Shown: piece after piece, positions 13,248 through 37,500 of the stretch
Position numbering within the stretch: position 1 is the stretch's first letter
Layout of the letters: each line of letters opens with the position of its first letter
DNA from: Candidatus Muproteobacteria bacterium RBG_16_65_34
GTDB taxonomy: Bacteria; Pseudomonadota; Gammaproteobacteria; Acidiferrobacterales; Sulfurifustaceae
Assembly (NCBI GenBank): GCA_001785115.1
Contig: MFSU01000102.1
Span: 1-47,611 of the forward strand
Direction: 5' to 3'
DNA: 47,611 nt
Notes under the pieces: generated by a model
Seen by the model: the letters and a program-made list of their open reading frames with translations, nothing else
What the model was told of the DNA's origin: nothing
Databases searched by the model: none
Position numbers and translations under genes: made by a program

Positions 13248-15263
13248 GTGAACATTCGCCCCATGGCCTTGCTGCACATCAGCGAACCTGGGCGCACGCC
13301 CGCGCCGCATGCACGCCGCTACGTCCTCGGCATCGATCTGGGCACGACGAACTCGCTGGTGGCCTGCGTGCGCAGCGGCGTCGCCGAGACCCTGCCGGAC
13401 GACAACGGGCGGCATCTGCTGCCCTCGGTGGTGCGGTATCTGCGCGGCGCCGCCCCGGTCGTCGGGTACGAGGCGATCGCCGTGGCGCATGAAGACCCCT
13501 TGAACACCATCGCCTCGGTCAAGCGCCTCATGGGACGCGGGGTCGAGGACGTGAAGCGCCTGGGCCGGACGCTGCCGTACGAATTCACCCAAGCCGATTC
13601 GGCGATGCCACGCATCCGCACGGTGGCGGGCGAGCTGAGCCCGGTGGAGGTCTCGGCCGAGATCCTGAAGGAGCTGAAGCGGCGCGCGCAGGCCACACTC
13701 GGCGCGGAGGTCCGCGACGCCGTGATCACGGTGCCGGCCTACTTCGACGACGCCCAGCGCCAGGCGACCAAGGACGCCGCGCGCGTTGCCGGCCTGAACG
13801 TCCTGCGGCTCCTGAACGAGCCGACGGCCGCGGCGCTCGCCTACGGGCTCGACCGCCGGGCCGAAGGGGTTTACGTCGTCTACGACCTGGGCGGTGGCAC
13901 GTTCGATGTGTCGCTGCTGCGGCTCAACCGCGGCGTGTTCGAGGTGCTCGCGACCGCGGGCGACTCGGCCCTCGGGGGTGACGACATGGACCACGCCGTC
14001 GCCGAGTGGCTGATGCGCGCGGCCGGGATCGGCGACGACGATGTGCAGGGAGGTACCGGTGTCGGTCGCTTACAGCATCCTGCTTCTCGCGACACTGGTA
14101 CATCCCTGTACGGCGCGGGGGACAGGATGTCGGGAGCGACCGCCGATCGCAAACGGCTGCGGCGGCTCTTGCGCGATGCGCGTGCGGCGCGGGAAGCGCT
14201 GACGCAGAATTCACGCACGCCGGTGCAGGTCGCGCGGGCGGACGGCTCCGTGTGGGAGGGTGCGCTCACACGCGCGCAGCTCCAGGCGCTCGTCGAGCCC
14301 CTCATCGACCGAACGCTTCCGCCGTGCCGCCGGGTGCTGCGCGACGCCGGCCTGCGCGCGGACGAGGTGCTGGGCGTGGTGCTGGTGGGCGGGGCGACGC
14401 GCATGCCGCGCGTGCGGGAAAAGGTCGCCGAGTTCTTCGGGCGCGCGCCGCTCGCCGACATCGACCCCGACCGGGTGGTCGCCGTCGGCGCGGCCATCCA
14501 GGCCGACGCGATCGGCGGCAACCGGCGGGACGACGATCTGTTGCTGCTCGATGTCATTCCGCTCGCGCTCGGCATCGAGATCATGGGCGGCATGGTGGAG
14601 AAGATCGTTCCGCGCAACACCACGATTCCGGTGGCGCGCGCCCAAGACTTCACGACCTACAAGGACGGCCAGACGGCGCTCCTGGTTCACGTGCTGCAAG
14701 GCGAGCGCGAGCTCATCGCCGACTGCCGATCGCTCGCCCGGTTCGAGCTTCGGGGCATCCCGCCCATGGCCGCGGGCGCGGCGCGCATCCGCGTCACCTT
14801 CCAGGTGGACGCCGACGGGCTCCTGAGCGTCTCCGCACGCGAACAGACCACGGGCGCGGAGAGCCACGTCGCCGTCAAACCCTCCTACGGCCTCACGGAC
14901 GCGGAGATCGAGCGCATGCTGCGCGACTCGATCGCGCATGCGCGCGAGGACGAGGCGGCGCGGACACTTCGCGAACAGCAGGTCGAGGCGGACCGGATGA
15001 TCGAGGCGGTGACGGCGGCGCTCGCGGCCGACGGCGCGCGCCTCCTGAGCGCGGACGAGCGTGCCGCGATCGAGGCGCGCGTTGCGGAATTGAAGGTGGC
15101 GCGGGACGGGGATGAGGCGCGCGCGATCAAGCGCGCGGTCGAGGCGCTGGATGGGGCGACCGGCGGCTTCGCCGCGCGGCGCATGGACGATGCCGTGCGT
15201 GCGGCCCTGGCGGGGCATCGTCTTGAGGAATTCAGCCCGTCCCCGGAGCCGAAACCGCGCTGA
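13248..15263 (+). CDS. hscA: Fe-S chaperone HscA, carrying an in-frame palindromic insertion
   Basis: [45 protein letters not shown]; extra about 28 aa near 14061-14144. Confidence 0.96.
14063..14142. repeat. nested palindromic element inside hscA
   Basis: arms cggtcgct/agcgaccg, catcctg/caggatg and gtaca-tccc-tgtac, nearly concentric. Confidence 0.9.
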
Positions 15264-33751: not shown

Positions 33752-35308
33752 TCAAATCGCTGGCACCCGCATCCGCAGCGCCTCGGTGCGGTTGCGCGTC
33801 CGTTCTTCTTCATCGATCTTCACGAGCACGTCGTAGTACATGCGCACGCGGTTTACGTAGCGCACCGCCTCGATCCCGCGCGCATATCCGTAGCGGGTGC
33901 GACCGAACCATCGGCGCTCCTCGAGTAGCGGCAACCGGTCCTTAACGTCGCTCCATTTGTTCGGATCGCCGCTCTGCGTCTGGGTGAGGATACGGGCGTC
34001 CTCGAGGTGACTGAAGCCGATGTTGTAGGCCGCAAGCGCCATCCACAGCCGGTCTGGACCCGCGATATAAGGCATGCGATCGATCATCTGGCGGATGTAA
34101 AGCGCGCCGCCGTCGATGCTGCTCTCGGGGTCCTTGCGGTCGTCGACGCCGATATGCTGCGCGGTGTCCTCCGTGAGCATCATGATGCCGCGCACGCCGG
34201 TCGGCGAGACCGCGTGCGGGTCCCAGTACGACTCCTGATAGCCCATGGCCGCGAGCAGGCGCCAGTCGAGATCGTGCTGCGCCGCGGCATTTTCAAAGTA
34301 GAGCTGGTATTCCGGCAGGCGATTGCGGATGCGCAGTTGGTACACGGTCAGATTCAAAGGCGTGGCACGGCTGGCCGGGCCATAATAGCGGTCGAACAGG
34401 CGGGCCAGTTCGCCCGAGCGGCGGTTCGCCTCCAGGAATTTCGCGGCCGCCTGATTGAGGCTGTCGTCCTCGCCGGGCGGAAAGGCCCACGCGAGCGGCT
34501 CCGGCTTCTGGAGATCGAAGGCGACCTGGAGTTCCGGGAAATACTGGCGGTTGAGCGCCACGATGTTCGAGTCGGCGATGGTGATTTCGAGCAGGCCCTC
34601 CCACACCAGTTGCAGCAGCCCTTCGGTTTCCTTGTCCTCGACCTCAACCCATTTAAGGGCCGGGTGTTGCTGCTGCAGCTCCTTGAGCCGCTCGGCGTAG
34701 CTCGTGCCGGTGTGCACCTCGATCTGGCGTCCGATAAGGCCTTCGACACCCCCGGGTTTCAGCGTTCCCTGGCGGTACACGACTTGCTGGCGGATTTCCT
34801 GGTAGGGTTGGGTGAACTTGAACCGGTCGCGGCGGCGTTCGGTGATGGTGAGACCGGCGGCGGCCATGTCGGCCTTGCCCTCGGCGAGCTGCGGCAGGAC
34901 ATCGGCGAAGCGTTCGGCCACGACGATCTTGAGCTTGACGCCCAGGGAATCGGCGAAGGCCTTGGCGAGATCGTACTCGAAGCCCGCCGGCCCCTCCGGA
35001 GTCTCATAGTACGTCGTCGGGCTCTGGCGGGTGAGTACCACGAGCTGGCCGGAGGAGCGAACCGCGGCAAGCTTGTTGTCCTCGAACAAGGTGCAGGCCG
35101 GCAAGGACAGCGCAAGCGCAAGCGCAAGCAGGGCGGTGCGGTACCGGGTACCCCGCGCGAAGCCTCCGACCCGCGGAGGAATGTTGCATCGCATCCGGCG
35201 CATGCCTTCCAGCCTAACCGCGCGGCCCGCGAATGTCACGGGCGGATGGCCGAACCGGCACGGCTGGTATAAAATCACACTCCCGCGGAGAGGTACCGAA
35301 GCGGTCAT
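33752..35308 (-). CDS. mltF: membrane-bound lytic transglycosylase MltF (SBP_bac_3 + SLT)
   Basis: periplasmic-binding domain followed by AAMGYQESYWDPHAVSPTGVRGIMMLT. Confidence 0.95.
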   Translation of the reverse strand: MTASVPLRGSVILYQPCRFGHPPVTFAGRAVRLEGMRRMRCNIPPRVGGFARGTRYRTALLALALALSLPACTLFEDNKLAAVRSSGQLVVLTRQSPTTYYETPEGPAGFEYDLAKAFADSLGVKLKIVVAERFADVLPQLAEGKADMAAAGLTITERRRDRFKFTQPYQEIRQQVVYRQGTLKPGGVEGLIGRQIEVHTGTSYAERLKELQQQHPALKWVEVEDKETEGLLQLVWEGLLEITIADSNIVALNRQYFPELQVAFDLQKPEPLAWAFPPGEDDSLNQAAAKFLEANRRSGELARLFDRYYGPASRATPLNLTVYQLRIRNRLPEYQLYFENAAAQHDLDWRLLAAMGYQESYWDPHAVSPTGVRGIMMLTEDTAQHIGVDDRKDPESSIDGGALYIRQMIDRMPYIAGPDRLWMALAAYNIGFSHLEDARILTQTQSGDPNKWSDVKDRLPLLEERRWFGRTRYGYARGIEAVRYVNRVRMYYDVLVKIDEEERTRNRTEALRMRVPAI

Positions 35309-35375
35309 AACGGCGCTGACTCGAAATCAGATGGGCGGCAACGCCACGGGGGTTCGAATCCCTCCCTCTCCGCCA
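35287..35375 (+). tRNA. tRNA-Ser(CGA), CCA encoded
   Basis: acceptor ggagagg/cctctcc, anticodon loop CTCGAAA, long variable arm, GGTTCGAATCC, CCA. Confidence 0.95.
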
Positions 35376-35597
35376 TTATCCCGCGCAGCGGGAAAATGGC
35401 TCATCATAAGCATGAGAACCCGAAGGGTGAAGAATCCTGCTGTACAGGGACGTACGAATGTCGCGGAGCGCAGGGCGAGGCGGAAAGAGACAACGGTCCA
35501 GTGGACCGTTGTCCCGCCGAGCGGGCGCGCCATGGAAGGTGCGCCCCGGGCTTTCGAGCGAAGCAGGACAGCGTAGTCGAAGAAAGCGCGGGAGCGA
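35361..35597 (+). repeat. tRNA-Ser 3'-end repeat unit A1 (237 bp)
   Basis: starts and is followed by cctccctctccgcca; shares the about 53-nt conserved block with A2 and B. Confidence 0.92.
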
Positions 35598-35752
35598 CCT
35601 CCCTCTCCGCCATTATCCCGCGCAGCGGGAAAATGGCTCATCATAATCATGAGAACCCGAAGGGTTCGACCAGCGCCGCCGGGAGCGCCGCCGAACGCCG
35701 GAGCGCAGCGACGGCGGCCCGGAGGGCGGAGGGCAGGAAGCCCGGAGTAATC
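35598..35752 (+). repeat. tRNA-Ser 3'-end repeat unit A2 (155 bp)
   Basis: cctccctctccgccattatcccgcgcagcgggaaaatggctcatcataatcatgagaacccgaagggt, then a new tRNA tail at 35753-35767. Confidence 0.92.
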
Positions 35753-35849
35753 CCTCCCTCTCCGCCATTTTCCTGCGCAGCTCGGTCCCTTCGGCACTCA
35801 CGCCCCAGACGGTTTTTGGCTAGAATGTGCCGGCCAAGACAGGGACACC

Positions 35850-36960: not shown

Positions 36961-37104
36961 CCGGAGAGGTGTCCGAGTGGGCGAGCCGGAGTATTCGCGG
37001 AGGCACTTAACGTGCCTCCGCGCCGGCGAGCGCCCGCACAGGGATGTGCGGGCCGGGGCTGAGCGAAGTCGTGGTGCTGCGCCAGGGACGGCGGGTATGA
37101 AATT
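36961..37104 (+). repeat. 144-bp module flanked by duplicated tRNA-Ser 5' end
   Basis: ccggagaggtgtccgag at 36961 and again at 37105 (tRNA start); contains gcggaggcac-ttaac-gtgcctccgc and cccgcaca-ggga-tgtgcggg hairpins. Confidence 0.9.
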
Positions 37105-37106
37105 CC

Positions 37107-37310
<204 letters not shown>

Positions 37311-37500
37311 CCTCCCTCTCCGCCATTTTCCTGCACCATTTTCCTCACGGACCGTCCGCCGATTGTCACCGACACCGCGGTTATCTCGGCGCGCGGCGCA
37401 TGGTACACTGTGCGTCCCTGGCAGGTGGTTGAAAAGCAGCCTTCCAGCCGTGCCGGAACGGGTGCGGCTCGAACGGCGGGAAACCGAGTACGACAGATTA

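Follow-up and report, generated by a model that had tools for sequence, protein, structure and literature searches.

Structured modules behind two tRNA-Ser genes of a Candidatus Muproteobacteria genome: probable tRNA-linked repeats with GGA hairpin loops

Two tRNA-Ser genes that lie 1.7 kb apart in a 47.6-kb stretch of Candidatus Muproteobacteria DNA (the window, i.e., the whole stretch that was analyzed) are followed by short modules, each of which is a tRNA-derived 3' segment whose T-arm is interrupted by a short insert with secondary structure. For module 2, this insert is the core of a tRNA-linked repeat (TLR) placed in the T-loop (GTTCGA^ATCC), and tRNA positions 58-76, which end in CCA, follow; in modules 1 and 3, a dispersed element is placed in the T-stem (GAATCC^CTCCC), and positions 62-76 follow. 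We consider it fairly probable that the modules are TLR/rtT-type repeats of a GGA-hairpin form and that they were inserted in spare tRNA copies; the tails are putative CsrA decoys. To our knowledge, TLR/rtT repeats, known since 1978, have no accepted function or origin.

Results

The features of the window are collected in Table 1. The 15-mer CCTCCCTCTCCGCCA occurs in it five times, always on the plus strand: at 35361 and 37183 within the two tRNAs, and at 35598, 35753 and 37311, where the match to the tRNA 3' end spans 15, 19 and 15 nt, respectively. Two tandem modules (35376-35612 and 35613-35767) lie behind tRNA-Ser(CGA), and a single module (37198-37325) lies behind tRNA-Ser(GGA). The preliminary description, which missed the single module, had placed repeats of the tRNA-Ser(CGA) 3' end at 35598 and 35753, and both are found there; its common block behind the first two copies is confirmed as a 68-nt direct repeat with 99% identity, and the three hairpins that it assigned to this block fold as claimed. 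The tail block of module 1 is repeated at 35613 and 37198. Because 35350-35471 and 37172-37293 are 99% identical over 122 nt, the tail block stands behind both tRNA-Ser genes. Chance is excluded, since the repeats measure 68 and 122 nt and the same anatomy is found in relatives. The 53-nt block that had been expected to lead to other genomes does occur outside the host; however, this genome and G010 alone have the exact block complete, G005 has a part of it, and the widespread unit is the core. The first hairpin of the tail block can alternatively pair with the tRNA's own CCA. Directly behind tRNA-Ser(CGA) in L023 (G017), the CCA-abutting hairpin resembles an intrinsic terminator with CCA in the stem.

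Table 1. Features of the two tRNA-Ser loci and of a further dispersed-element copy in the window
Feature	Position	Strand	Basis or context
tRNA-Ser(CGA)	35287..35375	+	ARAGORN, Rfam tRNA
Module 1, tail block: CCA-abutting hairpin, CTCAT hairpin, ACCC-GAA-GGGT, then ..GAATCC	35376..35437	+	
Module 1, dispersed GGA double-hairpin element in an enlarged form	35438..35597	+	R1 and direct sequence reading, cf. L035
tRNA-Ser 3'-end copy, 15 nt, positions 62-76	35598..35612	+	
Module 2, tail block, with T-arm sequence GGGTTCGA at its end	35613..35669	+	
Module 2, putative TLR core with four hairpins (A-D), the D loop containing GGA	35670..35749	+	R2, R3, Rfam RtT
tRNA-Ser 3'-end copy, 19 nt, positions 58-76	35749..35767	+	
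tRNA-Ser copy, 5' piece, broken in the D-loop	36963..36980	+	Shares a 17-nt repeat with the 5' end of the tRNA
tRNA-Ser(GGA)	37107..37197	+	ARAGORN, Rfam tRNA
Module 3, tail block, nearly the same sequence as in module 1	37198..37259	+	122-nt repeat, 99%
Module 3, dispersed GGA double-hairpin element of 52 nt, in the T-stem at GAATCC^...^CTCCC	37260..37311	+	R1
tRNA-Ser 3'-end copy, 15 nt	37311..37325	+	
Further dispersed-element copy	14039..14141	+	In frame in Hsp70/HscA-type gene 13248-15263
Second dispersed-element copy, nested in the preceding one	14064-14115	minus	

On strong evidence of sequence and predicted structure, module 2 appears to be a repeat of the E. coli TLR/rtT type. The Rfam RtT model (RF00391) aligns to it over the full length at 24.4 bits, under the curated cut-off of 45, which is passed in relatives (58.5 bits in G008 and 48.2 bits in G019); among 14 control genomes, E. 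coli was the sole match. A covariance model built from 18 cores, one of them from E. coli and none from the host's own family (R3), gives module 2 a score of 63.3 bits (35664-35752), the next match in the window scoring 14.8, and also recovers loci of the host's own family. The module 2 core scores 63.4 bits with R2. TLRs follow a tRNA or rRNA gene on the same strand, and their last 18-19 nt are identical to the 3' end of that gene; the modules of the window are placed in this way, and module 2 ends in 19 such nucleotides. Modules 1 and 3 share 15 nt only and contain a different insert, and we judge them to be TLR-like, not TLR. It should be noted that the folding of module 2 is no better than that of shuffled sequences (z -1.3) and that the stem of its hairpin A is imperfect. 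The parallel to the E. coli tyrT/rtT locus that was drawn in the preliminary description holds and is closer than was claimed: the core of the module at 35613-35767 is related in both sequence and structure. Rfam sX4 matched each of the two tRNA-Ser genes with a score under its cut-off (42 and 28 bits); these matches were rejected because they consist mostly of the tRNA itself, and those of BASRCI153 and of microRNAs were discarded as palindrome artefacts.

We scanned GTDB genomes with the pattern CCCGMAGGGYGARG-N8-20-GAGTAATC, which ends before the tRNA-specific part, and obtained at least 120 loci, almost all of them in Gammaproteobacteria; the others are in Mariprofundus and in a small number of odd contigs. 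The matches listed contain 147 modules, and for 108 of these a same-strand tRNA is located no more than 900 nt upstream; where 900 nt were on hand, 95 of the 118 modules listed are downstream of a tRNA or rRNA on the same strand. Among the matches listed, the last 19 nt are positions 58-76 of the module's own upstream tRNA in 74 of the 108 modules, and at least 17 of the 19 nt agree with the upstream tRNA end in 81 of 108; the exactly matching modules represent 26 distinct 19-mers and 13 tRNA kinds. Agreement at 18 or more of the 19 positions is seen for a fraction of 0.73 of these listed matches, compared to a mean of 0.12 and a maximum of 0.24 when tRNA assignments were shuffled (2000 shuffles). 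Matches to R2 are present in 139 of 292 genomes of the class and in 117 of 231 genera, i.e., roughly every second gammaproteobacterial genus that was sampled has TLR/rtT repeats; the number of copies recorded per genome is bounded by how many candidates were scored.

Copy number varies, a point on which the preliminary description had made its reading depend: rtT-like DNA is present in 4710 of 5426 E. coli genomes, at 1 to 9 places each. This variation, like the near-identity of the units, would also be expected if the tRNA tail had been duplicated locally in tandem, whether through slippage or through unequal crossing-over, and no special element were involved. We regard such an origin as very unlikely: it leaves unexplained both the conserved core behind unrelated tRNAs and the copies away from tRNAs. 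A core common to tRNA kinds and lineages counts against local duplication, although slippage or crossing-over may still alter the copy number.

The position of the core points to insertion. It measures about 75-90 nt, begins directly after GTTCGA and stops directly before ATCC, within the tRNA T-loop; the context of the module 2 core is the same (GTTCGA^...^ATCC). Owing to this T-loop position, each module ends in the 3' end of its own tRNA. Once the core had been excised, ARAGORN accepted a tRNA spanning the junction in seven cases (L132, L155, L167, L178, L065, L083 and L085), and an intact tRNA with the same anticodon stands beside the interrupted one in L065, L083, L084, L085 and L254. The host genome (2.03 Mb, 75% complete) has a relative in the same family, G016, in which contig C68 carries an interrupted tRNA-Ser; the same one is found in MFTB01000068.1 (‘Candidatus Muproteobacteria bacterium RIFCSPHIGHO2_12_FULL_60_33’). 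In L036, L110 and L247, a core lies in the D-loop of a tRNA-Ser copy; further cores are found behind a tmRNA in G003, where the end of the module repeats the 3' end of the tmRNA (L072, 1516-1618, minus strand), and within an ORF of G196, where a 75-bp core at GTGGA^ATCC keeps the frame. GA precedes the stem in 52 of the 67 cores with a GGA hairpin A. The common GA^A junction and the lack of a target duplication suggest precise insertion, and it is likely that TLRs arose as insertions into spare tRNA copies. In the window, GGA-loop hairpins at about 37033-37055 and 37080-37094 follow the broken tRNA-Ser piece and precede tRNA-Ser(GGA).

The preliminary description had also suggested a ladder of target sites, and this is upheld insofar as the cores resemble precise insertions in tRNA T-loops; on the other hand, no integrase was found between the copies, and no target-site duplication was seen. 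In attachment sites located in T-loops, the identity block runs from the T-loop to CCA. The 3'-end copies share this property, and could be the attachment sites of integrative elements with an integrase that uses tRNA T-loops. However, this is extremely unlikely, given that the units of 155 and 237 bp contain no integrase, that between the tRNAs there is only a cNMP-binding/rhodanese gene, with no integrase or cargo between the copies, and that, among the matches listed, one core is found behind 13 tRNA kinds.

Several points count against our preferred explanation, insertion in spare tRNA copies. An antisense T-arm precedes the core in many classical TLRs (e.g., L056, L057 and E. coli GGGGAAGGGTGAGAACCTTCGA), and simple insertion does not account for it. 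In addition, no mobilizing protein was found. The 5' arm is only modestly more complementary to the tRNA end of its own module than to other tRNAs (7.7 vs. 5.9 bp).

Several further arrangements of the core were recorded. The antisense T-arm copy before the core is tRNA-specific in L056, L057, L063, L074 and L099. Tandem cores abut in L087, L062 and L194 (GGAGTA^CAAAATC), as though one had inserted at the end of another. Far from tRNAs, TLR cores occur in larger multi-copy repeats in G182 (L244, L257-L262), G316 (L245, L263-L269) and G207 (L270-L272); free transposition of these cores was rejected, since their flanks are common and the cores ride in the larger repeats.

The insert of modules 1 and 3 is a dispersed element of 52 nt, which is built of a hairpin, GTAC-AGGGAC-GTAC, and of an outer stem, GTCGC/GCGAC, around a second hairpin with an AGGA-type loop. 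R1 matches module 3 at 74.7 bits (37260-37312) and module 1 at 50 bits (35438-35492), the second hairpin of the latter containing an insertion of about 115 nt. The stems covary (28 both-side changes vs. 6 in shuffles); the second hairpin, most of which is outside the search query, has a variable stem and retains GGA in the loop in nearly all copies. There are at least 30 copies in this genome; among relatives, 32 of 60 have the element, and across the class it is present in 71 of 292 genomes, the copies recorded per genome again being bounded by the candidates scored. Rfam gave no match for it, and BLAST searches found none in phages and one weak match in plasmids, inside a primase gene. Its site in tRNA tails is GAATCC^CTCCC. 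Elsewhere, the element is crossed by open frames: that of the Hsp70/HscA-type gene of the window, which has an extra stretch at residues 257-304 in the alignment with DnaK, and similar ones in L012, L018, L010, L021 and L039. A nested composite similar to that of the window is found in a ZIP-type transporter gene (L012), suggesting that the composite itself was copied.

Nesting, in-frame copies and precise insertions without target duplication are also what one would expect if the GGA loops were kept not for CsrA but as sites for a transposition protein acting on single-stranded hairpins. We consider this rather unlikely, as there is no candidate protein. Y1 transposase seems a doubtful mobilizer, as its counts do not track the dispersed element: Y1_Tnp is present in the host genome and absent from G003 and G006 (both incomplete), which have at least 31 and at least 61 copies, respectively.

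A GGA in a hairpin loop is the binding motif of CsrA/Rsm proteins, and several such loops are characteristic of CsrA/Rsm decoys. The tails of the window contain seven GGA-loop hairpins, compared to 1.3 in shuffles, only one in 500 of which reaches seven. The stems of the core covary (116 both-side changes vs. 35 in shuffles), and many non-enterobacterial cores have two covarying GGA-loop hairpins. Across all 118 cores, GGA in hairpin A and GGA in hairpin D co-occur (34 with both, 8 and 17 with one, 59 with neither; p = 6e-10, with phylogeny ignored). It should be noted that alignment A2 was picked for GGA loops, and its loop conservation carries no evidential weight. The csrA gene is present in the host genome; it is found in 131 of 139 genomes with TLRs vs. 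127 of 153 without (p = 0.003, uncorrected), and in 69 of 71 genomes with the dispersed element vs. 189 of 221 without (p = 0.005, uncorrected). Several csrA-less genomes retain TLRs or dispersed elements. RrB, a TLR RNA from an E. coli rRNA operon, has GGA hairpin loops and was bound by CsrA and Hfq in vitro, whereas E. coli tRNA TLRs are predicted not to bind CsrA (PMC8144298). In our data, tRNA TLRs of Enterobacterales have no GGA loops, which fits that prediction; thus, CsrA binding is not general. For the modules of the window, we tentatively regard CsrA binding as plausible, though less likely than not.

Conversely, the modules could be kept for an RNA function, i.e., the tRNA 3' tails would be selected as CsrA/Rsm sponges, mobility would be incidental, and the tRNA 3'-end copy would be retained so that the nucleases of tRNA maturation trim the tail RNA. 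Paired GGA loops on covarying stems, the RrB precedent and the higher frequency of csrA in genomes with the elements are consistent with such selection. However, TLRs in csrA-less genomes, Enterobacterales tRNA TLRs without GGA loops, and dispersed elements inside coding genes, in either orientation, and inside one another make it unlikely as the primary explanation. As a side observation, csrA is located just upstream of tRNA-Ser(GCT)-tRNA-Arg(ACG) in L030, L036 and L059 (G005, G003 and G002), where the tails have GGA-type TLR modules; putative CsrA decoys are borne there by csrA's own neighbors.

Discussion

Insertion in spare tRNA copies, the explanation that we prefer, would involve the following steps: (i) an element likely enters a tRNA gene that is present as a spare copy or as a fragment, and no target-site duplication results; (ii) the intact tRNA is retained, while the 5' part of the hit copy probably decays, and the leftover, i.e., the core and positions 58-76, would be a TLR; (iii) modules are likely gained and lost via recombination between direct repeats. 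The modules would be transcribed by read-through from the tRNA, and the CCA-ended stem may be processed as a tRNA end would be. By analogy to RrB in vitro (PMC8144298), the paired GGA loops may bind CsrA, and the tail would then serve as a growth-coupled CsrA decoy; we leave this function open. A broader proposal, which we find somewhat doubtful, is that the TLR cores and the 52-nt element represent separate branches of one undescribed class of insertion elements of Gammaproteobacteria, below 100 nt in length and with GGA double hairpins, that enter the T-loops of tRNAs, the D-loops of tRNA-Ser and, in frame, genes without target duplication and also supply transcribed CsrA decoys. Regardless, there is a large non-enterobacterial class of TLRs with paired GGA hairpins, and its origin and the CsrA idea are now open to direct experiment.

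The E. coli TLRs were reportedly described by Egan and Landy in 1978 and by Rudd in 1999, and are said to include the tyrT repeats and RttR/rtT RNA. There are 22 of them at ten loci, with 3' 18-19 bp identical to the upstream tRNA or rRNA and with no known function (PMC8144298). The modules of the window are similar to them in the location behind a tRNA, in the tandem units, in the identity of the 3' end of module 2 to that of the upstream tRNA, in the core motifs CCCGAAGGGCGA and GAGTAATCC and, in relatives, in the antisense T-arm; they differ in the GGA loops of hairpins A and D, the host tRNAs, the other insert of modules 1 and 3, and the RtT score below the Rfam cut-off. The E. coli rrn TLR RNAs RrA, RrB and RrF (PMC8144298) likewise have GGA hairpin loops; however, these are behind 5S rRNA, whereas the window modules are behind tRNA, and CsrA binding was shown for RrB and is putative here. 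CsrA decoys of the CsrB/CsrC/RsmZ type have several GGA-loop hairpins as well, whereas each module has two or three, is tied to a tRNA gene, and has no promoter of its own shown. As for the dispersed element, Rickettsia palindromic elements are also short, palindromic and located in frame within genes; from what is generally known of them, they differ in sequence, host and length. REP/RAYT systems are comparable as short dispersed hairpin repeats, whereas here no link of the element to Y1 transposase counts and no GTAG motif were seen. New here are the exact T-loop site of the core, the paired GGA hairpins in non-enterobacterial cores, and the dispersed 52-nt element in two modules of the window.
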